64,000 nucleotides of DNA. Origin: Sulfurospirillum multivorans DSM 12446. Its GTDB lineage: Bacteria; Campylobacterota; Campylobacteria; Campylobacterales; Sulfurospirillaceae. The DNA lies in contig NZ_CP007201.1 in the NCBI RefSeq assembly GCF_000568815.1, positions 1,869,654-1,933,653 on the forward strand. The letters run 5' to 3'. A program made the translations under genes and the position numbers. The notes beneath the pieces are model-generated. The model was not told the origin of the DNA, ran no database searches, and worked only from the letters and a program-made list of their open reading frames with translations. This document shows positions 18,373 through 35,033 of this stretch, one piece after another. The first letter of the stretch is position 1. Every line of letters starts with the position of its first letter.

Positions 18373-19947
18373 TTAGCGTAGCTCCATGACCATTTTTTTC
18401 AAAACCTCTTTATCAATTTTTGCTTCACTGGGACTGGTTTGAGGAAGCTTCTCTTTATAAACAATAATAGAAGGAATCATGTGGTTTGGCAAATGTTTTT
18501 TCAATTCAAACACAATCTCATTTTTAGAAATTTCTCTCGCAGCGCTGTAAACCATCACAATCTCTTCTTCTGTTTTTTCATTTTCAATGGAAAAAACAGC
18601 GCATTGTGCAATTAACGGCAATTTATCATGAACAACACTTTCAATTTCATAAGGGCTGATTCTAAAACCACTGACTTTGATCATATCATCCTTGCGCGAA
18701 ACAAAATAGAGATAGCCCTCTTCATCTCTGTAAACAAAATCACCGCTGGCAACGACGATCTCATCGGTCAGATCACCCTCTAAATTAACGACTTTATCTA
18801 AAATTTCAATACTTTTATAACGTTTTTGCGTATCTTCTTTGGATTTCCAATACCCTTTATAGATGTAGCCACCACGATGAATCAACTCGCCAATTTCACG
18901 AGGCTTACACTCAAGCCCTTGCTCATTAATCACATGAATTTCAACTCCAGGAATCGGCTTGCCAATCGAATTGGGGCGAATTTTAAGTTGTGCAGGATCA
19001 AGATAGGTTGAACGAAACGCTTCAGTAAGCCCATGCATAGAGTAAAACTTAGCACTTGGGTAGCGCTCTTCTATATCGGCAATCATTTTAGGCGTAATTT
19101 TTCCACCCGAAGAGGTCACAATGCGTACATTGGCTAAAAGCTTTGCATTGGGAATACGCTTAGGATCGCTTTCAAACATTTGCGTAATGTGAGGAGGCAT
19201 CAATGGAAGAACGGTGACACCATCATTGATAAGATGGTTGAAAAAATCTGCTGGAAGCACTAAAGAATGAAGCGCTAACGTCGCATGATTATAAATGGAA
19301 CAAAAAAGTTGGTTAAGACCATAATCTAAGATAAACGGCAATGTCCCCGAAATAACATCATTCTCTTTAAGTTCCAAATAGTTGGACGCCACTCTGGCAC
19401 TATCGATGAGATTGCGGTGCGTAATGACAATGCCACGAGGAAAACCCGTCAAACCAAAACTATAGGTAATTGCCGCATTTTTATAGTCGCCAATATTACA
19501 TGTAAACGCATCACTGCAACATTTATAGATCTCTTCAAAGGAGACAATGTCGCGCTCACTGGCTTCATACGTGATAATTTTTCCTTGAAAGTTGATCTCA
19601 TCAATGCTTTTGATCTTCGATTTATCGGTAATAATACATGCCATACCACAATCATTGATGATGTGTTCCACTTGCTCTGGTTTCAAAAGTCTTGAAATAG
19701 GTACGAAGATATATTCGGTTGAAAGAAGTGCCAACATTGCAATAATCTGTTCACTGCTTTTATGCGAATAAATACCGATGCGCGAACCACTTGGAAGGGC
19801 AAGTTCACTCAGATAGCGCGCGATTTGATTGACTTTACGAAACAAATCAGAATAAGTTAGTTTTTTAGTGCCATCAATCACTGCGACTTTATCAGGACAT
19901 GTCACAGCCGCTTTTTCAATCAGCGCACGAATACAATTTATAGACAT
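18373..19947 (-). CDS. Stand-alone adenylate-forming enzyme (acyl/amino-acid AMP ligase)
   Basis: The 524-residue ANL-superfamily enzyme has the A3-type loop in YSFGLTGFPRGIVITHRNL, the A5-type MHGLTEAF, the hinge and A8 region (SRKDDMIKVSGFRISPYEIE) and a late lysine in SEAKIDKEVLKK. It would activate a carboxylate as an adenylate. No carrier-protein or condensation domain is attached. It follows the glutamate mutase genes on the same strand after an 88-bp gap holding a hairpin, so its substrate may be linked to 3-methylaspartate; that is inference from context. It could also be an ordinary acyl-CoA ligase. Confidence 0.8.
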   Translation of the reverse strand: MSINCIRALIEKAAVTCPDKVAVIDGTKKLTYSDLFRKVNQIARYLSELALPSGSRIGIYSHKSSEQIIAMLALLSTEYIFVPISRLLKPEQVEHIINDCGMACIITDKSKIKSIDEINFQGKIITYEASERDIVSFEEIYKCCSDAFTCNIGDYKNAAITYSFGLTGFPRGIVITHRNLIDSARVASNYLELKENDVISGTLPFILDYGLNQLFCSIYNHATLALHSLVLPADFFNHLINDGVTVLPLMPPHITQMFESDPKRIPNAKLLANVRIVTSSGGKITPKMIADIEERYPSAKFYSMHGLTEAFRSTYLDPAQLKIRPNSIGKPIPGVEIHVINEQGLECKPREIGELIHRGGYIYKGYWKSKEDTQKRYKSIEILDKVVNLEGDLTDEIVVASGDFVYRDEEGYLYFVSRKDDMIKVSGFRISPYEIESVVHDKLPLIAQCAVFSIENEKTEEEIVMVYSAAREISKNEIVFELKKHLPNHMIPSIIVYKEKLPQTSPSEAKIDKEVLKKMVMELR

Positions 19948-19977
19948 TTTGGCTCCTTTGATTCATAATTTTTATAC

Positions 19978-20003
19978 GAGGTAAAAGCAAAGCTCTTACC
20001 TCT
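19978..20003. terminator. Stem-loop between the mutase genes and the AMP ligase
   Basis: AGGTAA-AGC pairs with GCT-TTACCT around a short A-rich loop, with single mismatches in the arms. It may partially end the glmS-glmE-glmL transcript before the ligase gene. Confidence 0.45.
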
Positions 20004-20035
20004 ACGTTCGCCACTGGGGCACTAAAGCTTGCCTC

Positions 20036-21229
20036 TTAGGAGGCAGAATTTTCATTATTTTCCATTCCCAATGTCCAGATTGCGTAGTCGTAATCCATAA
20101 CAATATTGGGAATAGCATGAAGATTCATCACTTTTTTATAGAAAAATTGCATAATGATCTGAACTTCCTCATAGGAGAGCACTTTGGTAATACCGCCTGT
20201 TAATACGATGGTATTGAGCAGTTCAAGATGCAGTGTCACATACAAAGGATGAAGTCTTGAGACTTTATACAGTACCAAAAAGATGGAAAGTTGCATCAAA
20301 ATGCGCAATGACTTCTCGCTCTCCTCTTCTAAAATATTCTCCGTCACATTCAGATACGCCAATAACTCATAAACAAACTCATTGTTTTTAGCTGCAAAAA
20401 TAAGCGTTTCACGAGACTTAAAGACACCAAGTTTTTTAAAGACTAAACGGTCATAACCGCTTTCACTGACAATGTTATCGCGCACCAAATCGCGACTGTA
20501 ATGAATGTCTGTCGTAGCTCCACCGATGTCTACGACAATGAACGGATTGACCACTTCAAAGTTCGCATCAATCAGTGGCAAAGAACGGTTCACAATGTAC
20601 GGTGTTGAGTAGATTTGATTGCCGGTGATTTCGTAGAGATGTTTGATGTCTTCTTTACCCACAATGTCCGCTTGATAGAGGTTTGTGAGGTACTCTTTTA
20701 GCTCGCCACCGTTTACATGTAACTTTTCCGTGATGATATTTCCAATCATTTTAAGCTCTGGAATGTGCGCACTTAAAAAGGAGGCGTCTTGTTTGGTTCC
20801 CACATAAACAATGTTGCTGTACTGAACGTTTTTGAGGTAGTCAAATAGCTTTTCATCAAACACATTGCCAATGCCATCAATTCCACCCACGATAATCACA
20901 ACATCTACCAGTTCACTAGGCGCTCTGCACTCTTCAATTTTACTGTATAAAATCGTATCGATGATGTTAATGCCCGAATTAAACGCTATATTTTTAGCAA
21001 ACTTCAAACTAAACGAGTTCGTAAGCCCAATAATCAGTGTACTTAAACCACCATTAGCAGAAGAGCAGATAAAAATATCCTCTTTCTTATAGTTTGCAAA
21101 AATATTGCCACATTTGGTGATCAAATCATCGTAAATATCTTTCTTAAAATCCCTAAAATACTGGCTAATACCGCTTGTCTGGCAGACTTTAAAGTAGGTG
21201 CTCCCTACATCGATGAGAAGTTTACTCAT
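20036..21229 (-). CDS. glmL: GlmL/MutL-type ASKHA ATPase associated with glutamate mutase
   Basis: The 397-residue protein begins with LLIDVGSTYFKVCQ, a phosphate-1 loop of the actin/Hsp70/hexokinase fold. It continues with a VDIGGATTDIHYS phosphate-2 loop and an IVLTGGITKVLS segment. In clostridia the MutL family protein is encoded between the two mutase subunits and is thought to reactivate or assemble the B12 enzyme. Here it overlaps glmE by 4 bp and follows it, giving the order glmS-glmE-glmL. Confidence 0.87.
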   Translation of the reverse strand: MSKLLIDVGSTYFKVCQTSGISQYFRDFKKDIYDDLITKCGNIFANYKKEDIFICSSANGGLSTLIIGLTNSFSLKFAKNIAFNSGINIIDTILYSKIEECRAPSELVDVVIIVGGIDGIGNVFDEKLFDYLKNVQYSNIVYVGTKQDASFLSAHIPELKMIGNIITEKLHVNGGELKEYLTNLYQADIVGKEDIKHLYEITGNQIYSTPYIVNRSLPLIDANFEVVNPFIVVDIGGATTDIHYSRDLVRDNIVSESGYDRLVFKKLGVFKSRETLIFAAKNNEFVYELLAYLNVTENILEEESEKSLRILMQLSIFLVLYKVSRLHPLYVTLHLELLNTIVLTGGITKVLSYEEVQIIMQFFYKKVMNLHAIPNIVMDYDYAIWTLGMENNENSAS

Positions 21230-22590
21230 AGCATCGCCCCTATGTCATGGATAATTTTATTAATCACTTCCGTTTGGCTTTCAGGCAGATTAACTTTTGA
21301 TTTTTCATAGGCAAAACAGCGATCAGGCAGTGGGAGTTTCCCTTTTTCAATGATGCGGATATTACCAGAGTCATCGCGAATCGTGATCACTTCGTTGTGA
21401 TTGATAATATGCGGTGAAAAAGGTACATCGATCAAACCGTTTTTGATGGTATTGAAGACTTTACGCCACAAGGTATCGGCAGGGTCATTAAAAACAGCGT
21501 CCATAATGGCACGCACTTCAAGCTCCAAGTTCTCCTCTTCCTCAGCATCATGAACAACAGGCAATCCTTTAAGCGTGCGAAGCGTGTATTTAGTATTGGC
21601 AACCGACTGGGCATTGCACTGCATGGTCGGAATGCCAAAGGCTTCATCACGGGTTTTAATAATGATCTTATCGGCTCGCACCATCGCGGCTATCACGGTA
21701 TTGGTGTTGATAAGCGAATCGGAGAGGTTTTTATCTCTTGGAAAAGCACCCATCCATTGATGGTACACAAGGTTAATGATAGCGTCACTTCCACCAAGCA
21801 TATCGGCATATTCGCGTGCTAGCTTTTTCAGAACATTAGAAGTCACAATGTCTTGCATCATGGAGCCATTTTGAGAGAAGCTGACCGAAAATGACTTTAC
21901 GCCCTCTTCGATGGAAAGGAGCATTTCGATGAGCTGAATGACGATGACAATGCACGGAGGAACGAGTGTCGCAGTGAGTGGTCCAAAAGACTCACGATTG
22001 ATTGGCTCATTGAGCGTTGAGTACTTTGCGCAGACTTTATCGACATACTTCCAGTATAAAAAAGCTTTATCAAGCGGGAAATTTTTTGAGTACGGGAGCA
22101 TATAGGTAATCGGGCCTCCTTCGATCTCGAAAATGCCCGAAGCGAGCGCCGTTTCCACTAAAAGCCTCGCATCAGGTGTGCCGTGACGAAGACTGACGGG
22201 TTTGTTAAAGTGCGTCATCATTTTACGTGTCGTGCGGTAGCCGTGATTGACCAATGGGTAGCCGTTGAGCATATCCATCTCGTTCTCTTCGGAGAGTGTA
22301 AGCATCTTTTTTGCCATCGCGTAGTCATTGAGTCTCGTGTTACTGTCAATCGTAAGAGGCAGAACATCGATGTCCGCTTTCATAAACTCTTCATAAAGTT
22401 CAAACATCTTTTTATAGGTTGGAAAACCGCCACGAGGCTGAACCAAAAGCCTGTCGCGCTTTTTAAAATGATGGGAGATAAACATCTCTTTATTGGCATT
22501 GCGAATAAAATCTTCAATTTCATCAAAATCAAAACTATCGGCATACTCATTGCGGGTGATGACATCACGCTCTTTTTGGAGTAGGCTCAT
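21226..22590 (-). CDS. glmE: Glutamate mutase epsilon subunit (methylaspartate mutase E)
   Basis: The 454-residue catalytic subunit has the family blocks QPRGGFPTYKKMFELYEE, DVLPLTIDSNTRLNDY, LNGYPLVNHGYRTTRK, SLRHGTPDARLL and EIEGGPITYMLPYSKN, all characteristic of the TIM-barrel subunit that binds glutamate. With GlmS it converts L-glutamate to (2S,3S)-3-methylaspartate by a radical shift using adenosylcobalamin. Length is close to that of the clostridial enzyme. It overlaps glmS and glmL by 4 bp each. Confidence 0.92.
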   Translation of the reverse strand: MSLLQKERDVITRNEYADSFDFDEIEDFIRNANKEMFISHHFKKRDRLLVQPRGGFPTYKKMFELYEEFMKADIDVLPLTIDSNTRLNDYAMAKKMLTLSEENEMDMLNGYPLVNHGYRTTRKMMTHFNKPVSLRHGTPDARLLVETALASGIFEIEGGPITYMLPYSKNFPLDKAFLYWKYVDKVCAKYSTLNEPINRESFGPLTATLVPPCIVIVIQLIEMLLSIEEGVKSFSVSFSQNGSMMQDIVTSNVLKKLAREYADMLGGSDAIINLVYHQWMGAFPRDKNLSDSLINTNTVIAAMVRADKIIIKTRDEAFGIPTMQCNAQSVANTKYTLRTLKGLPVVHDAEEEENLELEVRAIMDAVFNDPADTLWRKVFNTIKNGLIDVPFSPHIINHNEVITIRDDSGNIRIIEKGKLPLPDRCFAYEKSKVNLPESQTEVINKIIHDIGAML

Positions 22591-23006
22591 GCTCGCTCCT
22601 TCGCAAAACGCTCTATCTCATCGAGTCCCGTATTGAGATCAATTTGATGAAAGACAAGATCAAATCCATACGATTTATACTTGGGAATGATGTCGCTTTG
22701 CGCTGCTTCACCCACAGCTAGATTGCCCCCAATCACAAAAATAACCTCTTTGAGATCATACTCGGAGCGCAAAAATTGCAAATCACGACACCAGCCCTCC
22801 GCTTCACCATTGAGCGAAGAAATCAGCAGTATGTCTGCATCTGTTTCGACAACAGCGTCAATAAACTCTTCTAATGAAGTATTGACACCAAGGTTAAACA
22901 CCTCAAAACCTCTCGCTTGTAATGATATATCGATGAGCCTGTTTGCGACAACATGGATATCATTACCCACCACACCTGTGACTACTTGTAAGATACGTTT
23001 AGACAT
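22587..23006 (-). CDS. glmS: Glutamate mutase sigma subunit (B12-binding)
   Basis: The 139-residue B12-binding protein starts VTGVVGNDIHVVANRLID, matching the DxHxxG cobalamin region with His22 as the lower cobalt ligand. The motif's last Gly is Ala here. SSLNGEAEGW and FVIGGNLAVGE supply the rest of the nucleotide-tail pocket. It is the first gene of the mutase set. The spacer upstream (23007-23209) separates it from the divergent integrated element. Confidence 0.9.
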   Translation of the reverse strand: MSKRILQVVTGVVGNDIHVVANRLIDISLQARGFEVFNLGVNTSLEEFIDAVVETDADILLISSLNGEAEGWCRDLQFLRSEYDLKEVIFVIGGNLAVGEAAQSDIIPKYKSYGFDLVFHQIDLNTGLDEIERFAKERA

Positions 23007-23060
23007 TTAATTTAATACCTTTTATTTAAACTGTATTATTTATTTGTTGTTTGTCGATTT

Positions 23061-23127
23061 TACACGTTCAACCCCTTGTGACTACTTAGTGCTTTGACAC
23101 TTTATGAAAGATAGGGGTTTTCGTGTA
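23061..23127. promoter_or_regulatory. Nested stem-loop upstream of the recombinase gene
   Basis: Arms TACACG...AACCCCT and AGGGGTT...CGTGTA pair over 13 bp with a small internal bulge. The 36-nt loop contains a smaller AGTG/CACT hairpin. It lies in the non-coding 203 bp before the IS110-type gene. This is where the guide RNA (bridge RNA) of IS110-group elements is normally located. It could equally be a terminal recombination structure. Confidence 0.45.
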
Positions 23128-23143
23128 CTAACTTTTAATAATA

Positions 23144-23158
23144 ATCTAGTGACTAGAT
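23144..23158. promoter_or_regulatory. Hyphenated palindrome ATCTAGT-G-ACTAGAT
   Basis: Seven-bp perfect arms around one central base, 51 bp before the recombinase ATG. It resembles a dimeric repressor operator. It contains one of the GTGACT words that recur through the element. Confidence 0.4.
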
Positions 23159-23209
23159 CACGTTTACAAGTATAAAGAAGTACACATTATACATAAAAAA
23201 GGATTTACC

Positions 23210-24169
23210 ATGCGTAAAGTTGTTTTTGTTGGTGTAGATGTTGCCAAGGATAAGTTGGATATTTCTTTTACATGTGATGGTCAAAAATATGACTCTCTCA
23301 CGATTCTAAATAATGAGGGTTCAATATTAGGCTTTTTTGATTATTTAAAAACTACTTATAAAAAAAGTGAGTTTTTCGTTGGCTATGAGGCAACCTCCAA
23401 CTATATGCACTTACTTCAAAAGCTTCTTTGCCAACAAGATTTCAAGCAGATTATGATCAATCCTTATATGATGAGTCATTATCTAAAACATTTAAACTCA
23501 CGCACTAAAAGCGATCTCGCAGATAGTAAAGGTATCGCTAAATTCATCCAAACCCTAGATCAAGAAGATTTTAAAACAATCTTCAATCAAAATGATAAAA
23601 CACTCCGTAAATACACATCATCAATTAATCTTCTCCGTAAGCTTGATACTCAATTAAAAAACTTTATCCATTCCCAAAAAGAAAACCCTATTGACTCCTT
23701 AGATTTGTTTCTCGTCTCTTTAAAACTAACAATCAAAGAAACAAAAAAAGGTTTAGAGAAAGAAGCCGAAAATGTTTTAAAACAACTTTTCCCTCACGTT
23801 ATTGAACTTAAAGAACAGATCAAAGGCGTAGGCTACGCGCTCCTTTTAGAGTTAGTTCCTATTTTCCTAAAATCTGAAAATTACACCTTAAAACAACTTC
23901 AAAGCTTTGTAGGTCTTAGCCCTCGTATTTTTCAGAGTGGTACTTCTGTTCATAAGAAAGAATCAATGAGTAAACGTGGTAGCTCTTTAGTCCGAAAACT
24001 TTTATACCTTTCTGCTATGTCTGCCGTTCGTTATAACGACATTATCAAAGAAAAATACAATCGCCTAGTTGAAGGCGGTAAAAATAAAATGGTCGCCTTA
24101 GTTGCATGTATGTCTCACCTCTTCCGTGCCGTTTATGTCAAATTTCACCAAGGATTAGTAAATGTCTAA
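23210..24169 (+). CDS. IS110-family DEDD recombinase, likely the element's integrase
   Basis: The 319-residue protein has an N-terminal RuvC-like domain: Asp10 in VGVDVAKDKLDIS, the YEATSNY glutamate, and the SRTKSDLADSKGIAKF acidic pair. After a helical middle, the C-terminal Transposase_20 domain (about 200-300) carries FVGLSPRIFQSGTSVHKKE with the conserved serine, then SKRGSSLVRKLLYLSAMSA. The ATG lies 7 bp after AAGGA. It is not closely similar to the IS110 transposase at 50358. It leads a co-directional phage-like gene block and overlaps the next frame, so it probably integrates this element rather than being a stray insertion sequence. Confidence 0.88.
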   Translation: MRKVVFVGVDVAKDKLDISFTCDGQKYDSLTILNNEGSILGFFDYLKTTYKKSEFFVGYEATSNYMHLLQKLLCQQDFKQIMINPYMMSHYLKHLNSRTKSDLADSKGIAKFIQTLDQEDFKTIFNQNDKTLRKYTSSINLLRKLDTQLKNFIHSQKENPIDSLDLFLVSLKLTIKETKKGLEKEAENVLKQLFPHVIELKEQIKGVGYALLLELVPIFLKSENYTLKQLQSFVGLSPRIFQSGTSVHKKESMSKRGSSLVRKLLYLSAMSAVRYNDIIKEKYNRLVEGGKNKMVALVACMSHLFRAVYVKFHQGLVNV

Positions 24170-24482
24170 ATGTATCCTTTTCAACCGAATCCCACGCCAA
24201 ATGGCACATTTCTCTCTTTGCCCTGAGAGTTACGATTTTTGTATCCCTCTCGACAAATTGAGGCTTAAATTCGTAGCGATCAATGATTTAAAAGTACGTA
24301 GAGTTGAACTTTTTCTACGTCACCAAGATAGGGATTTACCAATAGGCAAAATTGAACTTTACCATTCAGGAACGATTCATAACTACGAGCACACCTTTGA
24401 AAGTGCCAAATTATTAGCCGAAGAGATTGTCATGCGTTTTAATAGTTTTGAGCCTAACGGTCAACAACAATTTCAATTTTAA
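24162..24482 (+). CDS. Unknown small protein, overlaps recombinase gene
   Basis: The 106-residue soluble protein overlaps the recombinase stop by 8 bp. It contains two cysteines in the first 20 residues and a central KVRRVELFLRHQDRDLPIGKIELYH segment with alternating charged and hydrophobic residues. I do not recognise a family. Its position between the recombinase and the replication genes suggests an early or regulatory role. Confidence 0.6.
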   Translation: MSKCILFNRIPRQMAHFSLCPESYDFCIPLDKLRLKFVAINDLKVRRVELFLRHQDRDLPIGKIELYHSGTIHNYEHTFESAKLLAEEIVMRFNSFEPNGQQQFQF

Positions 24483-24510
24483 AAAGGAGTCAACAATTTT
24501 TAAAGTCATT

Positions 24511-24654
24511 ATGAATAATAACATCATGGACACATGCAGAACGTATTCTCAGGCGCTTAGTAAAGCTAAAAAGATCAAAGCTCTTTTTTGTAAAAACCAT
24601 ACTTTTGAGGTTCTCGTTGAGGATTCCAAAGGTTCCATCTTGGATAGGTTTTAG
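24511..24654 (+). CDS. Unknown very small protein, start uncertain
   Basis: From the ATG at 24511 the product is 47 residues (MNNNIMDTCRTYSQALSKAK... ending KGSILDRF). The best ribosome site, AAAGGAG at 24483-24489, is too far from that ATG. It fits an in-frame ATT at 24496, which would add IFKVI, a plausible beta strand. So the true start may be non-canonical. No family recognised. Confidence 0.5.
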   Translation: MNNNIMDTCRTYSQALSKAKKIKALFCKNHTFEVLVEDSKGSILDRF

Positions 24655-24657
24655 TGT

Positions 24658-24852
24658 ATGAAATTTGAAGTATCAAAAACAGATTATCAAATTTTGGTTT
24701 CTGTTTTAAGCTTATTAAATAGAGGAGGTTACGGCACCACAATTACACGTGAAGATATTATTAGGGAAAGTGGCGTTTCACCATCAATGGTGACAAGAAA
24801 AATACACAATCTATATTTAAAAGAAAAACAACTAAAGGAAAGAATCGTATGA
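24658..24852 (+). CDS. Small winged-helix DNA-binding protein
   Basis: The 64-residue protein looks like a bare helix-turn-helix: TREDIIRESGVSPSMVTRKIHNLYLKEKQL. It starts 3 bp after the previous stop and overlaps the next gene by 4 bp. It is a candidate regulator of the element's early genes or lysogeny, by position only. Confidence 0.65.
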   Translation: MKFEVSKTDYQILVSVLSLLNRGGYGTTITREDIIRESGVSPSMVTRKIHNLYLKEKQLKERIV

Positions 24853-25388
24853 AAACAACAGAAAAACAAGATAGAGATTTTGACAAAAAATTTGACCTTG
24901 AGCATGAGGCTTTTTTGGCTTCAAATGGTAAAACAATCCCAGTAACCATTCACAAACCAGTAAACAATGGAGAAGCAGCCAACAACGTCGGTCTCAAAGA
25001 CATGTCACCAAAAATCGGTGAAGATGAAATGACGATGGATAAATTTAACGAAATGATGGCTCTTTACAATGCAAGAGTAAACGCAAATCAAGTCACTCTC
25101 TCCGCTCAGATTAGCGCACGTGAAGTTCAAAAAGGTAAAGAACGTTCAGATAAAGCAACGGGTGCTCCAATCCTTGACAGTGAAGGCAATCAAACCTTTT
25201 ATCCTAGCCGTTACAAAATCACACTCATTTTTAAAGGTGGCACTCTCGTTCAAAACGTCTCTGAGGCAATGTATAACGAGCTAGAACTCAATAGCACGTA
25301 CATGTTTAAAGGCTCACTAGGCTTTGTTAAAGACTTTGGTCAAGATGTTCTCTCACCTATTTGGCAATCATGGGAGAAAGTAGCGTAA
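24849..25388 (+). CDS. Putative ssDNA-binding protein of the element
   Basis: The 179-residue protein has a charged N-terminus (about 1-60). Its beta-rich core (QVTLSAQISAREVQKGK...RYKITLIFKGGTLVQNVSE...TYMFKGSLGFVKDF) has the strand pattern of an OB fold. It directly precedes the replication initiator and ends at a terminator, the position taken by gene V-type ssDNA-binding proteins in small ssDNA phages. No sequence match is claimed; the call is from context and strand pattern. Confidence 0.5.
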   Translation: MKTTEKQDRDFDKKFDLEHEAFLASNGKTIPVTIHKPVNNGEAANNVGLKDMSPKIGEDEMTMDKFNEMMALYNARVNANQVTLSAQISAREVQKGKERSDKATGAPILDSEGNQTFYPSRYKITLIFKGGTLVQNVSEAMYNELELNSTYMFKGSLGFVKDFGQDVLSPIWQSWEKVA

Positions 25389-25391
25389 TTC

Positions 25392-25414
25392 AGAGGGCTT
25401 AGCGCCCTCTTTTC
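25392..25414 (+). terminator. Rho-independent terminator
   Basis: AGAGGGC and GCCCTCT pair around TTAGC, followed by a T run. It ends the early transcript after the putative ssDNA-binding protein and before the replication gene. Confidence 0.75.
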
Positions 25415-25463
25415 GTTTCTTGAAACTCTAGTGTAGAGCTTCAAAAAGCGAAAACAAACTTCG

Positions 25464-25489
25464 CCCCCACAATGGTTTATCAAGGGGGG
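25464..25489 (+). promoter_or_regulatory. CCCCC/GGGGG stem-loop at the replication gene start
   Basis: Five C residues (25464-25468) face six G residues (25484-25489) across a 15-nt loop, 30 bp before the preferred replication gene ATG. Such G/C islands are rare in this AT-rich element. It may control initiator translation or be part of a replication origin. Confidence 0.45.
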
Positions 25490-25519
25490 TTAGGTGCGAC
25501 AAATATCAAAAGGTCTAAA

Positions 25520-26911
25520 ATGCAAAAACTGGTCAAACTTTGGCAAAATATCGACACCCTAAAATATCACCTCTACCCGTCTCTACTCTTGCAAGGTAAA
25601 GACGTTACAGCCTATAACGCTCTACTCGATACATTACTCTCCACAAAGCTCCAAGCACAAAGCCAAAAAAACGAGAATAAAAGCTTCTCCCAATACCAAC
25701 ACTCCTTTGGCGGTGACTTTTTTCAAATTATGCCCTCTACGGTGCGTGGATTTAGTGTATCCATTAAAAACCACGACATTACAATCCACTTAAAAAAGAT
25801 GGTAACCACAATAGACCCTAACCCATTCTGTAAAGTAGAATTTCGTGCCTCATTCCTCCAACGTTACGGTTATATCTCCGCTATTCAAAAAGTCAACAAG
25901 TTTTTAAGAGATTTTATAATCTCCCACTACACAATCAAGATCAGCGAAATACATTTGCAGTGTGATATACAAGGTCATAACTTCACCGTCTTAGACTTTC
26001 ACCGTACCAAATCAAAAACACGCAATAATCGTTACTACGATGATGAAATAGGCTGTGATAGCTTCTATTATTCAGGACGTAACTTCCAAGGCTTTATGAA
26101 AGGCGGTGGCGATTATTTAATGCGTGTCTACAATAAAACTAAAGAGATTAAAAAGTTTCCAAACAAAGGCTTTATCGAAGGATTATGGCGCACAAACAAA
26201 GATTACGACGAAACAAAAGAAGTCTTTAGAATCGAATTTCAGATCAGAAGAGAAAAGCTTAAAAACATGGTCATTGACGGTCAAATCCTAGACGGCTTTG
26301 AAATAATCCTCAATAACCTTAACAATCTTTGGGGTCGTTGTCTAGAAGATTTTAGCCTCCGTGACATTAGCGATCAAGATACAACCGAAATAATGTTAGG
26401 TTTTAAAACACTTAAAAATGGCACTCAAAAAATGCTCACCACTGACGCAGTACGTCAACGCTTTACACGTAGTGAAGTGCATCCTCTTTGGGCTGTTATT
26501 GGCACGTTTAACGGTCATTATCAAACTGCAAAAATTGACACTTTTGTCAAACCGTTTACAACTGATTTTATTTACGTTCATAACGCATTTAAAGCGTTCC
26601 TTTCCACATCACTTTCACACTTTGGCGATCTTCGTCCAGCTACGATTGAAGAGGCATTAACTAAAGTTCAAGAGTACACACAATCTAAGCATGAAAAGAC
26701 AGTCTTAGAAGACGTTTATAGTAAACGCCTTGATCGTTTCAATAAGCTTGAAATTTACAATCCTGACGATGAGAAACTATACGCAAATAAACACTACTTT
26801 GTTAATCGTGTATTTGACACCATAGATCAAACGTATAACGCTCTGCATGATGTTGGTGTAGGGCAAAATGATGAATTTATTGAAAAAATATCCCAATGTT
26901 ATGGAGCTTAA
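25520..26911 (+). CDS. Phage/plasmid-type replication initiation protein
   Basis: The 463-residue protein is the largest in the element. It has the look of a Rep_trans/RstA-like initiator: an N-terminal domain with NHDITIHLKKMV, then IKISEIHLQCDIQGHNFTVLDFH, a MRVYNKTKEIKK segment where such proteins keep a catalytic Tyr, and EVFRIEFQIRREKLKNM. I prefer ATG 25520 (AAAGG 7 bp upstream) over the ATG at 25472 inside the stem-loop. It is inferred to nick DNA for rolling-circle replication. Confidence 0.7.
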   Translation: MQKLVKLWQNIDTLKYHLYPSLLLQGKDVTAYNALLDTLLSTKLQAQSQKNENKSFSQYQHSFGGDFFQIMPSTVRGFSVSIKNHDITIHLKKMVTTIDPNPFCKVEFRASFLQRYGYISAIQKVNKFLRDFIISHYTIKISEIHLQCDIQGHNFTVLDFHRTKSKTRNNRYYDDEIGCDSFYYSGRNFQGFMKGGGDYLMRVYNKTKEIKKFPNKGFIEGLWRTNKDYDETKEVFRIEFQIRREKLKNMVIDGQILDGFEIILNNLNNLWGRCLEDFSLRDISDQDTTEIMLGFKTLKNGTQKMLTTDAVRQRFTRSEVHPLWAVIGTFNGHYQTAKIDTFVKPFTTDFIYVHNAFKAFLSTSLSHFGDLRPATIEEALTKVQEYTQSKHEKTVLEDVYSKRLDRFNKLEIYNPDDEKLYANKHYFVNRVFDTIDQTYNALHDVGVGQNDEFIEKISQCYGA

Positions 26912-26912
26912 A

Positions 26913-27107
26913 ATGAGTTTTAAAATTGGTTATAAATTAAGTTTTCGAATAAAAGGTTCTGATGATTTTTCTGTTATATATATGTTTCATTATCCTTCTG
27001 ACCCATTGCCTGTTTCTAATTTACTTCATTCTGAATTAGATGAATTAAATTTTGTTTCTGACGAACTCAACAATATATTTTTGAGTATGAATAAATTATC
27101 AAAGTAG
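26913..27107 (+). CDS. Unknown small protein after Rep
   Basis: The 64-residue frame begins at ATG 26913, 6 bp after a GGAG embedded in the last codons of the replication gene, so translation is probably coupled. It has a SFKIGYKLSFRIKG strand-rich start and an acidic C-terminal half. No recognised family. Confidence 0.5.
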   Translation: MSFKIGYKLSFRIKGSDDFSVIYMFHYPSDPLPVSNLLHSELDELNFVSDELNNIFLSMNKLSK

Positions 27108-27116
27108 TTTAAATAA

Positions 27117-27368
27117 ATGAAATGTCTAGTTTGCGGTAAACCTATTATCTTTAACGATAAATGCTATCGTTGCTCCTTTGGACGTCCTAAAACTTACTGT
27201 TCAGATCATTGCAGAGATTTTACAAAATACTTTAACGCTATGGTCAAACACTTAGATCAAATCGAATTAGACGACGAACATAAACGTAAAATAAGAGGCG
27301 ATATTTCTAGGGTAGGTAATTCCCTTAAGTTTCCAACGATTGTTGATTTTAGTACCAAAAGACCTTGA
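27117..27368 (+). CDS. Small zinc-ribbon-like protein
   Basis: The 83-residue protein has MKCLVCGKPI, a CYRC pair and YCSDHC, giving three cysteine pairs that suggest a treble-clef or double zinc site. A helical basic tail follows (DDEHKRKIRGDIS). It could be a nucleic-acid-binding accessory of replication. It ends next to the first 193-bp repeat. Confidence 0.6.
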   Translation: MKCLVCGKPIIFNDKCYRCSFGRPKTYCSDHCRDFTKYFNAMVKHLDQIELDDEHKRKIRGDISRVGNSLKFPTIVDFSTKRP

Positions 27369-27376
27369 GAAGAAAT

Positions 27377-27569
27377 GGAGCATCTATGATTTTTCTAACA
27401 AAACAAAAAAATCGGTTAAAACTCTCTTTTTACCGTTGGCTACGTAACTATCTTTTAGTAAGTTACTTTCAAAATGTAGGTGCAAATATCGAACGATTTT
27501 GCTTGATCTGTGATCTCTCTGATGAGATCGAATTTTTAGAAGGAAGGATTTAAATAATGATTTTAATTG
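27377..27569 (+). repeat. 193-bp direct repeat, copy A (left of the methyltransferase gene)
   Basis: Copy A matches 28378-28570 almost base for base, at a constant offset of 1001 bp. It runs from a GGAGCAT ribosome site through a complete 55-residue frame and into the first 13 bases of the next gene. After those 13 bases copy A diverges, leaving a dead 9-codon stub of the M15 peptidase start. Confidence 0.95.
27386..27553 (+). CDS. 55-residue repeat-encoded protein, copy A
   Basis: This encodes a basic helical protein (MIFLTKQKNRLKLSFYRWLR...) ending CLICDLSDEIEFLEGRI, with GGAG before the ATG. It is nearly identical to copy B at 28387. The N-terminal half is basic and aromatic; the C-terminal half is acidic with two cysteines. 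Function unknown. Confidence 0.6.
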   Translation: MIFLTKQKNRLKLSFYRWLRNYLLVSYFQNVGANIERFCLICDLSDEIEFLEGRI

Positions 27570-27582
27570 TAGGGTGTGCACA

Positions 27583-28386
27583 ATGAAACTAGTTTTATCT
27601 CTATGCTCAGGTATCGGCTTACTAGATCGTGCATTCAAAGAAGCAGGCTTCTGCGTCGTAAGTTCAGGTGACATTATTCTCGGTAAACATTATGACATCC
27701 GTAACTTTACAGGTGTTAAAGGTAAATTTGATGGAGTGATCGGCGGTCCACCATGCCCTGACTTTTCACCCTTAAAACGTGACCGCCCTGTATTGGAAGA
27801 GTCTTACGGTTTTGAAATGCTTATGGAATATAAAAGAATCGTTTTAGAGTGTGACCCCTTCTGGTTTCTTTTAGAAAATGTTTCAGGTGTACCTAACGTT
27901 AAAATAGATGGATACTCACATCAAAGATTAGACATTAATCAATCTTGGTATGAAAACGTGACTCGGCTGCGCCACATTCAATTCGGTCACAAAGATAATA
28001 AATACCTACAAATTGAAAGAAAAATTGTGACTGATCGATCACATAAATTACAATCATGTGCTTTAGCAAATGATAGCCGTTCTTTTAGAGAGCTTTGTAG
28101 ATTGCAAGGCTTAGAAGATGACTTCGACTTAAAAAGTTTTAATGTGCAAGGTAAAAAACGTGCAGTTGGAAACGGTGTTCCACTTTGTATTGGTCGAGCA
28201 CTTGCAAAGGCTGTGACTGATCTGGAAGAAATAAGTGTGACGCAACAGGATAATAAAATCTGTGCATGTGGTTGTGGTCGTATTGTGACCCATCGAGGTG
28301 GTTATTATGACTATTCATGCCGTAAACGAGCCCAAAGAAATAGAAATAAATTTGCTGTGACTGATCAACAACAAATAGGAGCATAA
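27583..28386 (+). CDS. C5-cytosine DNA methyltransferase (orphan)
   Basis: The 267-residue enzyme has motif I (LSLCSGIGLLDRAF), motif IV with catalytic Cys58 in GGPPCPDFS, motif VI ENV at 98-100, a motif VIII-like FRELCRLQGLEDDF and motif X VGNGVPLCIG. The target-recognition region is short. A C-terminal addition holds CACGCG and a CRKRAQRNRNK basic tail. No restriction enzyme is adjacent, so it probably protects the element's DNA. It sits between two 193-bp direct repeats, which marks it as an inserted cassette. ATG 27583 is chosen because it aligns with motif I. Confidence 0.88.
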   Translation: MKLVLSLCSGIGLLDRAFKEAGFCVVSSGDIILGKHYDIRNFTGVKGKFDGVIGGPPCPDFSPLKRDRPVLEESYGFEMLMEYKRIVLECDPFWFLLENVSGVPNVKIDGYSHQRLDINQSWYENVTRLRHIQFGHKDNKYLQIERKIVTDRSHKLQSCALANDSRSFRELCRLQGLEDDFDLKSFNVQGKKRAVGNGVPLCIGRALAKAVTDLEEISVTQQDNKICACGCGRIVTHRGGYYDYSCRKRAQRNRNKFAVTDQQQIGA

Positions 28387-28570
28387 ATGACTTACCTAAC
28401 AAAACAAAAAAATCGGTTAAAGCTTTCTTTTTACCGTTGGCTACGTAACTACCTCTTAATTAGTTACTTTCAAAATGTAGGTGCAAATATCGAACGATTT
28501 TGCTTGATCTGTGATCTCTCTGATGAGATCGAATTTTTAGAAGGAAGGATTTAAATAATGATTTTAATTG
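28378..28570 (+). repeat. 193-bp direct repeat, copy B (right of the methyltransferase gene)
   Basis: Copy B differs from copy A at only a handful of positions, mostly near the ATG and in the middle of the small frame. Copy B is joined to the intact M15 peptidase gene. The methyltransferase gene plus one repeat forms a 1001-bp unit. Confidence 0.95.
28387..28554 (+). CDS. 55-residue repeat-encoded protein, copy B
   Basis: The ATG directly abuts the methyltransferase stop codon. The product (MTYLTKQKNRLKLSFYRWLR...) differs from copy A at three positions. Both copies keep open frames and ribosome sites, so both may be translated. Confidence 0.6.
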   Translation: MTYLTKQKNRLKLSFYRWLRNYLLISYFQNVGANIERFCLICDLSDEIEFLEGRI

Positions 28571-28935
28571 ATTGGTCAAAATTAAAAAATTTCAAAGAAA
28601 GTGAATTTACATGTAATTGCGGTTGTGGTCTAAATAATATCAATGATGATGTTGTTCTAATGTTGGATACTGCTCGTGAGTGGGCACATATTCCTTTTAA
28701 AATTAATAGCGCTTGTCGCTGTGAAAAACATAACAAAATGGTGGGAGGTGTAACAGATAGTGCACATTGTAAAGGATTGGCGGTGGATATTTCCGCTCGT
28801 GATGATAGGTCTCGATTTATTATCGTTTCGGCTCTTATGAAAGTAGGTTTCACTCGTGTTTTAATTTATGACACGTTTGTTCATGTTGATATGGATTTGT
28901 CAAAACCAAATCCTATTTTAAAATTAATGAAATAA
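28558..28935 (+). CDS. M15-family peptidoglycan peptidase (endolysin candidate)
   Basis: The 125-residue protein shows the zinc-peptidase ligands His70 and Asp77 (SAHCKGLAVDIS) and His109 (FVHVDMD), with an N-terminal CNCGCG typical of phage M15_3 enzymes. It would cut the peptide stems of peptidoglycan. There is no signal peptide, so release would need a holin or another route. The next small gene is a candidate helper. Its presence argues for a lytic virus rather than a secreted filamentous one. Confidence 0.85.
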   Translation: MILIDWSKLKNFKESEFTCNCGCGLNNINDDVVLMLDTAREWAHIPFKINSACRCEKHNKMVGGVTDSAHCKGLAVDISARDDRSRFIIVSALMKVGFTRVLIYDTFVHVDMDLSKPNPILKLMK

Positions 28936-28945
28936 AGGAAAAAAA

Positions 28946-29266
28946 ATGAAATTAAGTGATATTCAATGGTCAACGGTTCTTAAAAATGTTGGTGGTATTG
29001 TTACCACTTTTAACCCTGCAATCGGTAGTGGTTTGGTGGTAGCTAGTGAGGTCGTAGACAAGCTTAACGGTGATTCTATGCTATCAGATAACGAAGTCTT
29101 AAGAAACAACGTTGTTGGGCTTTCAGCATGTGCTGATATTATTGCAGATTACCTACAAAAAAAAGAGTTAAATCAAGAAGTAAATGACGATAACCTTAAA
29201 CTCGTTATGGTCTCTCTACAATCGCATGACGTTCTCTTTGATAAAATCTATGCGATTATGAAGTAA
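28946..29266 (+). CDS. Small phage protein downstream of the peptidase
   Basis: The 106-residue protein has a hydrophobic stretch (VGGIVTTFNPAIGSGLVVASEVV), then a helical acidic tail. The pattern resembles small proteins beside endolysins in Campylobacterota prophages. It may be holin-like or a structural internal protein. The ATG follows a strong AAGGA site. Confidence 0.5.
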   Translation: MKLSDIQWSTVLKNVGGIVTTFNPAIGSGLVVASEVVDKLNGDSMLSDNEVLRNNVVGLSACADIIADYLQKKELNQEVNDDNLKLVMVSLQSHDVLFDKIYAIMK

Positions 29267-29276
29267 GGATGGTTTT

Positions 29277-29840
29277 ATGTCATATTTAATTAGGGTGCAA
29301 TATTTTTCTAAGGATACGGTTTCCCCTATCGATAATCAAACGCATTTTGCTGGTTCTTTAGGTTGTTTTGTTCAAGATGGTTCCAATATGGAAAGTCCAA
29401 TTTTTGTTTTTAGTGCTGATTTTATGAATGAAGATGGTTCATTGAAATATACTTTTATTAATACTTTCACTATTTCTGATGTAAATTATACTCTTAGTGT
29501 TGTATTTGATGATGCTTATGGATTTCAATGTGTTTTTGATTATCCTCATTATTTTCTTGTTGACAACTCAGCTCTTGTTTTTCTTGCTGGTCTGTTAGGT
29601 TCTAGTGGTGGCACAACCGATACCTCTCTCTTAACTTCTCTCAACGGAAATTTTGGAAGTTATCCTGATGGCGCTCAGGTTGTTGTGCAAGGTCTTACAA
29701 CAAGAACCTATACAGTCCAATCAAGCTCTTTAGGTTGGGATTCACCATCAACGGGTAGTTTGATCATTACATACCGTTTAAAGGACGCTGACGATAACTT
29801 CCTAGAAGCTCCTCATGTCCTTTTAACTTTAAAGGCTTAG
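29277..29840 (+). CDS. Beta-rich structural candidate
   Basis: The 187-residue protein has few charges and many aromatic and beta-branched residues (YLIRVQYFSKDTVSPIDNQT, YTLSVVFDDAYGFQCVFDYP). A TSLNGNFGSYPDGAQVVVQG segment and strands follow to the end. It could be a capsid, spike or fibre protein. Codons end mostly in T, unlike the host. No family recognised. Confidence 0.5.
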   Translation: MSYLIRVQYFSKDTVSPIDNQTHFAGSLGCFVQDGSNMESPIFVFSADFMNEDGSLKYTFINTFTISDVNYTLSVVFDDAYGFQCVFDYPHYFLVDNSALVFLAGLLGSSGGTTDTSLLTSLNGNFGSYPDGAQVVVQGLTTRTYTVQSSSLGWDSPSTGSLIITYRLKDADDNFLEAPHVLLTLKA

Positions 29841-29842
29841 TC

Positions 29843-30754
29843 ATGTCTAATGCTTATGCAAAAGATGTACTTTTTAATGGTAATACTGGCGGTGGCATGG
29901 TGGCTGGTGGGGGTTCTTCCTCCTCCGCTAATAATGCTTCTTATCAGGGGCGTTATACTGCCTCTAACAACGTTTCCTATGCTCGTTCGTCTTCTGTTTC
30001 GCCTTTGACGTCTTCTGAAACTACTGTTGTTTCTCAATCAGGTACTGGCGTTGGTACTGTGAAACAATATTCCTCTACTAATATTACTAATTTTAATGTT
30101 GCTGATTATGTTAAAAATTTAACTAATGCTAGTGGTGGGTCGTCTTACACGTATTACACTGATGAACAAAAAGCACAAATGTCTGCACCTGATCGTTTGC
30201 TTATTGAACAATACGAAGCAATGCAAAAAGTTTCAGAAGATCAAAATAAAAATAAACAAGCTGTAAAAGATCAAACTAAAGAAGTGGTTAACGGTATTAA
30301 TTACCAACAAGGCGATACTCTTCCCTCCGTTCTCTCTCAAAACGCTAAAGCATTAACGCAAGCTATTAACGCTTTAACGACTACGTTTACAGATCAGTTC
30401 ACTTTGCTAAATAACTACATGATGGGAGGTCTCATTTATCAACAACAATTCTTAGATATTAAAACGGCTGAAAGTGGTCTAAAAATTGAATCTATGGAGT
30501 ACAACAAAACTCAACAAACGGTGTATGATCTTGATGGTAATGCTCTTGGTCAAGCTACACCTAGAGACCTTGGTGTACAAAAAGATGCTGTTGTCGGTAT
30601 TGATCACACGGATAAAATCAATTTTGAGATACCTGATGAGCTTGAATCTGATTTGTCTTCTGATGATCTTGATATTTCTACTATTTTGGGTTATGATGAT
30701 GGTGCTGATATTTTTAAAGAATTTTATACTCGTATGGGAGGTACTGGTCTATGA
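29843..30754 (+). CDS. Serine/glycine-rich virion protein candidate
   Basis: The 303-residue protein has a low-complexity N-terminus (NGNTGGGMVAGGGSSSSANN and Ser/Thr-rich text to about residue 75). A helical middle (about 105-180) contains TDEQKAQMSAPDRLLIEQYEAMQKV, and the tail is acidic. There is no signal peptide. The layout suggests a minor virion or assembly protein. It is separated from the previous gene by 2 bp and overlaps the next by 4 bp. Confidence 0.5.
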   Translation: MSNAYAKDVLFNGNTGGGMVAGGGSSSSANNASYQGRYTASNNVSYARSSSVSPLTSSETTVVSQSGTGVGTVKQYSSTNITNFNVADYVKNLTNASGGSSYTYYTDEQKAQMSAPDRLLIEQYEAMQKVSEDQNKNKQAVKDQTKEVVNGINYQQGDTLPSVLSQNAKALTQAINALTTTFTDQFTLLNNYMMGGLIYQQQFLDIKTAESGLKIESMEYNKTQQTVYDLDGNALGQATPRDLGVQKDAVVGIDHTDKINFEIPDELESDLSSDDLDISTILGYDDGADIFKEFYTRMGGTGL

Positions 30755-30873
30755 TTAGTAATAAACAAAAAAATAAGTTTTATTCTTTTCTTGATTGGAT
30801 TGGTGTTATTATTGTTGTTGTTGGCTTGGCTTATATTCTTTTTTCTAAGGGTGGTTTTTTAGGTGGTTTTTAG
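30751..30873 (+). CDS. 40-residue single-pass membrane protein
   Basis: MISNKQKNKFYSFLDWIGVI... has a basic N-terminus and one hydrophobic helix (about residues 14-32), ending in Gly/Phe. The ATG overlaps the upstream stop as ATGA. It is a candidate for a virion membrane protein, a small coat protein or a holin. Confidence 0.55.
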   Translation: MISNKQKNKFYSFLDWIGVIIVVVGLAYILFSKGGFLGGF

Positions 30874-30919
30874 CCTATAAAATAATTTCACATAAGTTTT
30901 ATTTGTCAAGGATTGTAAG

Positions 30920-31132
30920 ATGTTGCAAAAGATTAAAGAGCAGTTTTTTGGTTGGTTATATGTTTTTGTCTTTTTTTCTTTGTTGTTTACAGTTTTTTTT
31001 GGTCGCGATATTTATGATTATTATTTTGCACCAAACCCAGTTCAGCAATATGTTGATTCTTATGAAAAGGCTTTTGGGAAAAAAATGCAAGTTCCTGAGC
31101 TTTTAAAACAATACGTTAAAGATAAGCAATAA
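30920..31132 (+). CDS. 70-residue membrane protein
   Basis: One strong membrane helix (about residues 10-27, WLYVFVFFSLLFTVFF) is followed by a soluble C-terminus (YDYYFAPNPVQQYVDSYEKAF). There is no cleavable signal. It ends this transcription unit at a clear terminator. Candidate virion membrane or assembly protein; family unknown. Confidence 0.6.
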   Translation: MLQKIKEQFFGWLYVFVFFSLLFTVFFGRDIYDYYFAPNPVQQYVDSYEKAFGKKMQVPELLKQYVKDKQ

Positions 31133-31159
31133 GCCATTAATTTGGCTTTTTGTTTTTTC
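31131..31159 (+). terminator. Rho-independent terminator
   Basis: AAGCC and GGCTT flank an AT-rich loop, followed by a long T run. The first arm includes the stop codon region of the 70-residue membrane protein gene. Confidence 0.7.
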
Positions 31160-31161
31160 TT

Positions 31162-31228
31162 AAAATTTACACCCACCCTCTTTAACCTCCCTATTTTTCA
31201 TACTTCCCAATTTGTGTTAGTCAATTTT
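31162..31228 (+). promoter_or_regulatory. Bipartite element-specific regulatory motif, copy 1
   Basis: AAAATTTACACCCACCC (31162-31178) and TTAGTCAATTTT (31217-31228) start 55 bp apart. The same two words at exactly the same spacing occur at 34905-34971. This copy lies 42 bp before the ATG at 31271. It is probably a promoter or activator site shared by two late operons. Confidence 0.6.
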
Positions 31229-31270
31229 CCAACTTAATTCTTAACATTCTCGAAAAAAAGAGGTGTTAAA

Positions 31271-32023
31271 ATGGGTCAAGTTAAAAACATTGGTCAAAAT
31301 ACAGCTGAGGAGTTTTTTGAAACAATTCTTTACATGACTGCGTATCAAGAAACGCGCACGATTATGCAAGAATATACCAAGGATATTGATAGTCCTGTTT
31401 TAAAAGAGGCTATCGAATCTGCTATGTCTGTAGCTGTTTTTGGTGCTGTTTTTTTTGCTGTACAAAAACAAGAACAAATGATTGCTTGGATTTTTGATAA
31501 AGCTGAAGTTCTTATGCTTGTTCTTATTGGTAAAGCGCGCAATTTATTATCTAAAGTTAAAAAATTTAAAGGTACTAAGCTTTATCGTTTGCTTAATTTT
31601 ATGCAAGGTAATAATTCTGAAAATTTAATGACTGCTCAAATTGTTGCTACTCATCAGGGGTTTAAGTCTAATGCTCGTGTTCATTCTAAATATGCTACTA
31701 ATCCTATTGGTGCATATCAAATGCAAACCGATACTAAAAATTCGTTGTATCAACGCGAAAACCTCCATATGAATTTCGGCAATGCTATGGCCTCACGCTA
31801 CAATCAAACTCTCCTATTCAAACTCTTCACAAAGTCATTCACTGCTCAGGATGAACTATTGATTAAAAAAATCCTAGGCAGAGAAACGGGCGCCGCTGTA
31901 TCTATCGAAGATTTAAACCAAGTCGGTGATTTCCTTTTTGTCAAAGACACCAACGGCAAAGTAACTGGGCTTTCTGAGGCGTTTTTACAGCTTGTTAATA
32001 CTCTTGGTTATGTGAATAAGTAA
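31271..32023 (+). CDS. Unknown 250-residue structural candidate
   Basis: The N-terminal half is helical with hydrophobic runs (SAMSVAVFGAVFFAVQ, VLMLVLIGKARNLL). The C-terminal half is soluble, with DELLIKKILGRETGAAVSIEDLNQVGDFLF. Codons are T-ending up to about 31740 and C-ending after that, an abrupt change inside the frame. It is the first gene after the bipartite motif. Possibly a capsid or membrane-associated protein; unrecognised. Confidence 0.5.
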   Translation: MGQVKNIGQNTAEEFFETILYMTAYQETRTIMQEYTKDIDSPVLKEAIESAMSVAVFGAVFFAVQKQEQMIAWIFDKAEVLMLVLIGKARNLLSKVKKFKGTKLYRLLNFMQGNNSENLMTAQIVATHQGFKSNARVHSKYATNPIGAYQMQTDTKNSLYQRENLHMNFGNAMASRYNQTLLFKLFTKSFTAQDELLIKKILGRETGAAVSIEDLNQVGDFLFVKDTNGKVTGLSEAFLQLVNTLGYVNK

Positions 32024-32033
32024 GGATATTTCC

Positions 32034-32903
32034 ATGAATTACGTTGAAACTATTTCACATGAGAGTGAATTTGTTGGTTTTTTTAATGGCATTCCTCTTT
32101 ATGGTAATGCTAGTCAAGGTTATTATTTTCCTCTTTTTACTATTTATCCTTTTGTAGATTCTGAGCAGGGTTCACAATTTATGGTGTCTGGTATTCGTTC
32201 CGACCCTTATGATGTGGTCAAAAATTATCATGTTATTGAATTAAATGGCTACGCATGTATGTATAATTTTCGTGGAGTTCAGAGTGTTACTATTTATTCA
32301 AATGATTCAAGGGGTTTTTTTTCAAGTTTTATGAATCTTGAAGATGGTCTTTTTTATGCTGATAGAAATTCTCAAATTTTAGCGGATGATTTTTCATATC
32401 CTTTTTTAACTCTTGAAGAGGCTTGTAATTATTTTTATTATAATGCTCCTTTTGTTCAATATAATAGTATTAAACAAAAGGTTTCTCGTTCTGATATTTA
32501 TTCTGTTAGTGATAGTGTTTCTGCTTACGACATTCATTACAATCATTTTTTATATGTTGGCATTCTTTGTTCGCCAATATGTTGTTACCCTAATTTCATC
32601 CCAATCGTCCAATCCCTTGGCGGTATCCCCGTGACAGATCAACTACAAAACCTAAAAATTATTTGCCAGCTTTTAGGAATTGACATAAATACAACTTTGA
32701 GTGATTGTGATGCAATGAAAGAATATTTAAAGCGTATCGTAACCGTTCTCGGAGGTACTTCCTCTATTGAACCAAACGAAAACCTAAAATCAATCTGCTA
32801 TCTTCTTGGCGTTGATACGGCTGAAAATGGCTTAAGTGATTGTGCATTAAGCAAAGATTATGTGAAACGAAATGGAATAATGTTAGGAGCTGAAAATGCC
32901 TAA
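32034..32903 (+). CDS. Unknown protein with beta-rich body and duplicated C-terminal module
   Basis: The 289-residue protein has an aromatic, beta-rich body (about 1-185, many Tyr/Phe). Two related helical units follow near the end: LKIICQLLGIDINTTLSDCD...YLKRIVTVLGG and LKSICYLLGVDTAENGLSDC...YVKRNGIMLGA. The coding style changes from T-ending to C-ending at about 32580, just before the repeats. It may be a capsid or spike protein carrying an exchangeable tail. Confidence 0.5.
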   Translation: MNYVETISHESEFVGFFNGIPLYGNASQGYYFPLFTIYPFVDSEQGSQFMVSGIRSDPYDVVKNYHVIELNGYACMYNFRGVQSVTIYSNDSRGFFSSFMNLEDGLFYADRNSQILADDFSYPFLTLEEACNYFYYNAPFVQYNSIKQKVSRSDIYSVSDSVSAYDIHYNHFLYVGILCSPICCYPNFIPIVQSLGGIPVTDQLQNLKIICQLLGIDINTTLSDCDAMKEYLKRIVTVLGGTSSIEPNENLKSICYLLGVDTAENGLSDCALSKDYVKRNGIMLGAENA

Positions 32904-33930: not shown

Positions 33931-33934
33931 CTTT

Positions 33935-34827: not shown

Positions 34828-34904
34828 AAAGTCCTCACGATCAATAATCACATTTGACCCCTTTCTCTACTTCTTTGATGTTGAAATGATATTTTGTTCA
34901 TTGC

Positions 34905-34971: not shown

Positions 34972-35033
34972 CAATTTCTTTTTTAAACTTCTCTTCATGT
35001 TTTGCAAAACAAAAAACACAAAAGGATTCGTGA

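Follow-up and report, generated by a model that had tools for sequence, protein, structure and literature searches.

The locus described here lies in a stretch of 64,000 nucleotides (hereafter the window) of the 3.18-Mb chromosome of Sulfurospirillum multivorans DSM 12446, a member of the Campylobacterota whose closest named relatives are Sulfurospirillum. Four genes of the window form a single minus-strand operon: glmS, for the B12-binding subunit of glutamate mutase (22587-23006, 139 amino acids; NF002612 at 156 bits, cut-off 110); glmE, for the catalytic subunit (21226-22590, 454 amino acids; PF06368, E = 8e-119); glmL, for a divergent ATPase (20036-21229, 397 amino acids; PF13941, E = 1.2e-25); and a gene for an AMP (adenosine monophosphate)-forming ligase with a VinN-like pocket (18373-19947, 524 amino acids; PF00501, E = 1.8e-62). 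Four-base overlaps join glmS to glmE and glmE to glmL, and the ligase gene follows glmL after 88 bases. A first-pass annotation of the window had placed these four genes correctly on the same strand, but by treating 18373-23006 as the whole unit it drew the boundary too narrowly and overlooked a divergent plus-strand gene for an RraA-family lyase/decarboxylase (36685-37164; NF006875 at 167 bits, over the cut-off). The module has five components: glmS, glmE, glmL, the ligase gene and the divergent RraA gene. In this strain an inserted element outside the module, of IS110-type/phage-like character (22988-36052, strand not assigned), lies between its two arms.

The module recurs well beyond this strain. 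GlmE is encoded in 30 of 298 Campylobacterota genomes, belonging to 13 genera, and in these 30 the order glmS-glmE-glmL-ligase is near-invariant, with flanking genes that vary by family. Scanning 84,980 species genomes yielded 227 loci with a GlmE relative. The best 80 of the 227, on which the closer comparison was made, include Arcobacteraceae, Sulfurovum, Sulfurimonas, Vibrio, Colwellia, Thalassotalea, Halieaceae, Oceanospirillaceae, Granulosicoccus and Rhodoferax. GlmL is found in nearly all operons. The first-pass annotation had proposed to look for co-conservation of mutase and ligase in other genomes, and it is evident: 64 loci reach far enough downstream, and 62 of them carry the ligase gene. 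Further, pairwise identities of the five proteins, computed over 45 complete loci, are correlated (r = 0.69 to 0.94), the top value of 0.94 being that of GlmE against the ligase. In a midpoint-rooted GlmE tree, where some titles denote metagenome bins and could be mislabelled, the proteobacterial sequences fall in the midst of the Arcobacteraceae, a placement that suggests inter-phylum transfer. That plasmids carry this GlmE clade was considered and rejected: the aligned module GlmE proteins are at least 72% identical to that of the window, every plasmid match lies below 60%, and the best plasmid-borne GlmE proteins lie below 40%. Comparison of the neighbourhoods, whose contexts differ, revealed no recurrent downstream genes pointing to a product. 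We found no paper describing a glutamate mutase-ligase-RraA module in the literature searched, and the module is real, conserved and, as it appears, so far undescribed.

GlmE, encoded by a single-copy gene in the host genome, aligns over its full length to clostridial glutamate mutase (6h9e/1cb7, E = 1e-82). In this alignment its R53, R86, R135, E157, Y163 and Y167 correspond to R66, R100, R149, E171, Y177 and Y181, which in the Clostridium cochlearium enzyme are the arginine triad, the Glu and the two Tyr of the substrate site. A pattern check showed R53, R86, R135 and E157 to be kept in 45 of 45 relatives. The cobalamin motif of GlmS reads D-x-H-x-x-A instead of D-x-H-x-x-G in 42 of 45 relatives, the other three being missed by the search pattern. 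From the substrate-site residues of GlmE we infer that GlmS and GlmE together have glutamate mutase activity. GlmE reaches 376 bits against TIGR01503, slightly below the cut-off of 390, and GlmL reaches 80 bits against NF040745, far below the cut-off of 475; the distance of GlmL from its curated model and the narrow shortfall of GlmE indicate a separate clade. GlmL probably reactivates the mutase. At Rfam gathering scores, neither the window nor seven related loci showed a cobalamin riboswitch.

The whole ligase protein matches many AMP-forming enzymes, and its best named model is TIGR03098 (ligase_PEP_1), at 452 bits against a cut-off of 592; the module ligases of other genomes score 423-450 bits. 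When the pocket region was used as the query against the PDB, VinN (3wv4/3wv5/3wvn) ranked first. VinN activates (2S,3S)-3-methylaspartate as a β-amino acid (PMC11253843; see also PMC11284099), and in its 3-methylaspartate site D230 serves the amino group while F231 and S299 face a shortened loop carrying K330 and R331, as listed in a review (PMC11253843). Ligase residues D208, Y209, S280 and R312 align with VinN D230, F231, S299 and R331, gap-free in the loop and at its VinN spacing. The PDB chain and the published residue numbers differ by 16, a shift derived from D230. The motifs DYGxNQ, TSSGG and HGLTEA[FL]RS are kept in 67 of 67 module ligases; those AMP ligases of the same genomes that resemble acyl-CoA synthetases are without them. 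As judged by its pocket, the ligase is different from ordinary acyl-coenzyme A (CoA) synthetases. A VinN-like pocket encoded in the same operon as a glutamate mutase makes 3-methylaspartate its most likely substrate.

An exosortase-type ligase has this pocket too. Thalassotalea ND16A has both kinds of ligase, and its over-cut-off TIGR03098 member, which shares about 31% identity with the ligase of the window, has the pocket residues, sharing with it D-Y-G, S280 and GLTEAFRS. The window ligase differs from the ligases of these exosortase-A systems in scoring 140 bits below the cut-off, in reading YSFG for YTSG, and in belonging to a host with no TIGR03099 decarboxylase over the cut-off.

A second comparison concerns the vicenistatin system, where VinI/VinH and VinN (with the related VtlN and FlvN) likewise represent a glutamate mutase encoded with a stand-alone adenylation enzyme. 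The first-pass annotation had cited actinobacterial lipopeptide clusters as its precedent; the biosynthesis of vicenistatin-type macrolactam starters fits better. The likeness to VinN extends over D230, F231 (Tyr in the module ligase), S299, R331 and the short β13-β14 loop. In contrast, no VinL-type carrier, VinO-type pyridoxal phosphate (PLP) decarboxylase or polyketide synthase lies beside the operon, and the module has Phe for K330, an altered phosphate-binding loop (P-loop), an RraA partner and hosts of different phyla; plasmid-borne Streptomyces GlmE is only about 31% identical to module GlmE. The module is a variant of the vicenistatin-type pairing of mutase and adenylation enzyme, with a different set of partners.

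Several observations weigh against the reading, set out below, that the module makes and activates 3-methylaspartate. The position of VinN K330 is occupied by F311 in the host ligase and by Phe or Leu in all 67 relatives. The P-loop reads YSFGxxG where YTSGSTG is expected, its Phe being near-invariant in the family, and the A10 lysine, which most relatives need for adenylation, occupies its usual position in 34 of the 67; the host ligase has it. With an altered P-loop and an inconstant A10 lysine, adenylation may be weak, or lost in some members of the family. The AlphaFold model of the ligase is moderate (mean pLDDT 73, weak at residues 308-420), and Foldseek does not favour VinN, recovering the ANL fold only, which does not indicate a substrate. 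A search for carriers, suggested by the first-pass annotation, turned up neither a dedicated carrier nor a PLP decarboxylase belonging to the VinN route: three closed GlmE-positive genomes (G146, G209 and G074) have one PF00550 carrier only and the host has two, and a TIGR03099-type decarboxylase is over the cut-off in none of the genomes tested (host and other Campylobacterota), the two PLP decarboxylase matches of the host both falling below it. Loading followed by decarboxylation, as in vicenistatin, cannot be assumed. Finally, the role given below to the RraA protein derives from family knowledge and gene context.

The idea of a hidden carrier beside the ligase gene was rejected. Between this gene and yidD, the 560-bp gap contains only rpmH and a frame resembling rnpA, and the small genes that adjoin the ligase gene in Arcobacter (91-96 amino acids) are cytochrome-c-like instead. 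As a separate observation, carrier domains occur in reading frames of up to 3241 amino acids in two other Campylobacterota (G122:C1, ~2179578-2204421, and G264:C1, ~720724-725085), probably in clusters of non-ribosomal peptide synthetase type.

The RraA gene is tied to the mutase both by position and by occurrence. It usually adjoins glmS and diverges from it, being adjacent (within 1 kb) and divergent in 49 of 70 loci. Among Campylobacterota a strong RraA match (over 140 bits) is present in 30 of 30 GlmE-positive and 3 of 268 GlmE-negative genomes (hypergeometric P ~4e-38, taking genomes as independent although they are related), and one of these three, G207, is a deletion relic. In this Arcobacter-type genome (L157, ~6766-7976) a single deletion took glmE and glmL together with the greater part of the ligase gene, joining the first glmE codons to the end of the ligase gene and leaving glmS and RraA.

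RraA homologues are commonly annotated as regulators of RNase E. No RNase E is known from Campylobacterota, so such a role is unlikely here, and the evidence suggests a metabolic enzyme instead. All 45 module RraA proteins compared carry [DE]-X20-R-D, a form of the metal and enolate motif of the RraA/HMG-CHA aldolase family, to which the module protein is assigned by an over-cut-off match; unlike the family's enzymes of aromatic degradation, it is tied to glutamate mutase. Most RraA homologues that keep the metal-binding motif are regarded as class II pyruvate aldolases, enzymes with oxaloacetate decarboxylase activity, and the one aldolase of this fold described as characterised acts on oxaloacetate as a decarboxylase (PMC5065237). 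A second RraA clade, in Arcobacteraceae (L152, L153 and L154), adjoins genes for a biotin carboxylase subunit and carbonic anhydrase, neighbours compatible with a substrate of the oxaloacetate type. RraA has an aspartate/aromatic aminotransferase gene beside it in 14 of 23 proteobacterial loci, at less than 200 bp in 13 of them, in contexts that differ; in Campylobacterota (47 genomes) this partner has weak local matches only and no close counterpart.

Taken together, these findings are best explained, with about an even chance in our estimation, by a self-contained metabolic module, spread by horizontal transfer, for making and activating 3-methylaspartate. Using a cobamide coenzyme, GlmS and GlmE would turn L-glutamate into (2S,3S)-3-methylaspartate, GlmL keeping the mutase active. 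The ligase would then take 3-methylaspartate as a β-amino acid, adenylate its C4 carboxylate and pass the activated compound to an acceptor encoded outside the module, which may be CoA, an amine or the AcpP of general metabolism (the housekeeping carrier). Oxaloacetate or 3-methyloxaloacetate would be the substrate of the RraA-family enzyme, which in gammaproteobacteria is probably assisted by the adjacent aminotransferase and may remove an excess of methylaspartate in the form of 2-oxobutyrate or drive nitrogen towards glutamate. Such a division, with the ligase making the product and RraA clearing or balancing oxoacids, would fit all five genes better than the isoleucine route considered next. 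The first-pass annotation had suggested that methylaspartate is activated for a product not yet described. The VinN-like pocket and the co-conservation speak for activation, adenylation being a prediction, and no product can be named.

An alternative, which we consider unlikely though the strongest of the rivals, is that the module supplies 2-oxobutyrate for isoleucine independently of threonine: glutamate would be turned into 3-methylaspartate, which would be transaminated to 3-methyloxaloacetate, and RraA would decarboxylate the latter to 2-oxobutyrate, with the ligase as an accessory. The glutamate mutase route to isoleucine consists of a mutase, an aminotransferase and a decarboxylase leading to 2-oxobutyrate; it was reportedly proposed by Abramsky in 1962 (L-isoleucine biosynthesis III of MetaCyc). 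A mutase, an aminotransferase and an oxoacid decarboxylase all occur in the gammaproteobacterial version of the module, and the tight co-occurrence of RraA with the mutase, its retention of the catalytic motif of oxaloacetate-decarboxylating enzymes and the frequent neighbouring aminotransferase gene in Proteobacteria would all be accounted for. A glutamate mutase pathway to 2-ketobutyrate is also cited in a passage of PMC7476758. However, threonine ammonia-lyase (TIGR01127) exceeds its cut-off in all 47 genomes examined, whether or not they carry the module, so that isoleucine can be supplied without the module, and this was rejected as its main role. The near-ubiquitous and closely co-diverging ligase has no part in this route, and the aminotransferase is without a close counterpart in Campylobacterota. 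With threonine ammonia-lyase present in every genome examined and the ligase left without a role, we rank the isoleucine route second.

Two further readings concern the ligase, and we hold each to be improbable. According to one, it would serve catabolism by joining CoA to a C5 dicarboxylate or a similar acid, in an operon for the breakdown or assimilation of acids of this kind. The AMP-forming fold would suit this activity, and CoA is a plausible acceptor given the several genomes without a dedicated carrier protein, but the pocket residues are those of VinN and TIGR03098, unlike those of the acyl-CoA synthetases of the same genomes, and the neighbourhoods contain no conserved transporters, dehydrogenases or thiolases. 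According to the other, with a similarly small chance, the ligase no longer forms adenylates and has become a binding protein, or an enzyme of changed reaction, for a compound derived from methylaspartate. The near-invariant Phe in place of the P-loop Ser and the incomplete conservation of the A10 lysine speak for this reading. On the other hand, motifs A5, A7 and A8 are conserved, many ligases lacking the A10 lysine at its usual place have a Lys one or two residues off, and the host ligase retains its own.

The remaining possibility, that glutamate is fermented through the methylaspartate pathway or that a methylaspartate cycle of the haloarchaeal type operates, could claim the presence of a glutamate mutase with its reactivating protein, but it is hardly credible: methylaspartate ammonia-lyase (TIGR01502) is over the cut-off in none of the 35 operon-bearing genomes (the host and 34 others), where three sub-threshold matches are short and partial, which makes classical methylaspartate fermentation very unlikely. 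In the host genome TIGR01502 has no match anywhere, and the absence that the first-pass annotation had noted locally extends to the whole genome. That annotation had set its proposal against the case of a mal gene elsewhere in the genome accompanied by a ligase of acyl-CoA phylogeny; mal is absent, and by its pocket residues the ligase groups with TIGR03098 and VinN. The clostridial fermentation operon, glmS-glmL-glmE-mal, shares GlmS, GlmE and GlmL with the module, which differs from it in having no mal and in the order glmS-glmE-glmL.

In the strain studied, the upstream end of the operon has been disturbed. The inserted element, of about 13 kb and IS110 type, sits in the 5' end of glmS and separates it from its divergent neighbours, including RraA; both of its flanks align to sequence that is contiguous in relatives. 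It encodes an IS110-type recombinase, an endolysin, a DNA methyltransferase, and replication-like and glycine-rich proteins, and looks like an integrated small phage. In relatives GlmS reads MKVVTGVVGND and the divergent genes are close by; host GlmS begins MSKRILQVVTGVVGND, that is, MSKRILQ-VVTG as compared with MK-VVTG in the eight relatives compared. The changed N-terminus implies that the element supplies the start codon and that the native upstream region has been displaced, which makes it uncertain whether this strain expresses the operon.

Other mobile sequences are found in the window. At 36091-36254 there is a 164-bp palindromic element resembling a miniature inverted-repeat transposable element, with 25-bp imperfect terminal inverted repeats; it has five copies in the genome, of 80-100% identity, the second copy of the window being at ~53869-54022. 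A second IS110-family transposase gene of the window lies at 50358-51356 on the minus strand. Directly downstream of the operon is the gene series rpmH-rnpA-yidD-yidC-jag-mnmE (names assigned by inspection).

Glutamate mutase occurs in amino acid fermentation, in the haloarchaeal methylaspartate cycle and in a few antibiotic clusters. The module would add a fourth setting, that of environmental Campylobacterota, including Sulfurospirillum, and Proteobacteria, mainly marine. What the bacteria that bear it share is probably an undescribed small-molecule pathway, as opposed to glutamate fermentation. More specifically, though with slightly less than an even chance, many Campylobacterota and some Proteobacteria, for the most part gammaproteobacteria of marine origin, may possess a B12-dependent pathway in which a metabolite is formed from 3-methylaspartate through a carrier-free ligase with an altered P-loop and an RraA-type lyase, a new primary or near-primary role for glutamate mutase, distinct from those in fermentation and in antibiotic clusters. 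It would give module-bearing bacteria a candidate use for cobamides beyond the better known ones. Should the isoleucine route prove true instead, these would be the genes for the glutamate mutase route proposed in the 1960s, and in either case genes are now in hand with which that old route to 2-oxobutyrate can be tested.

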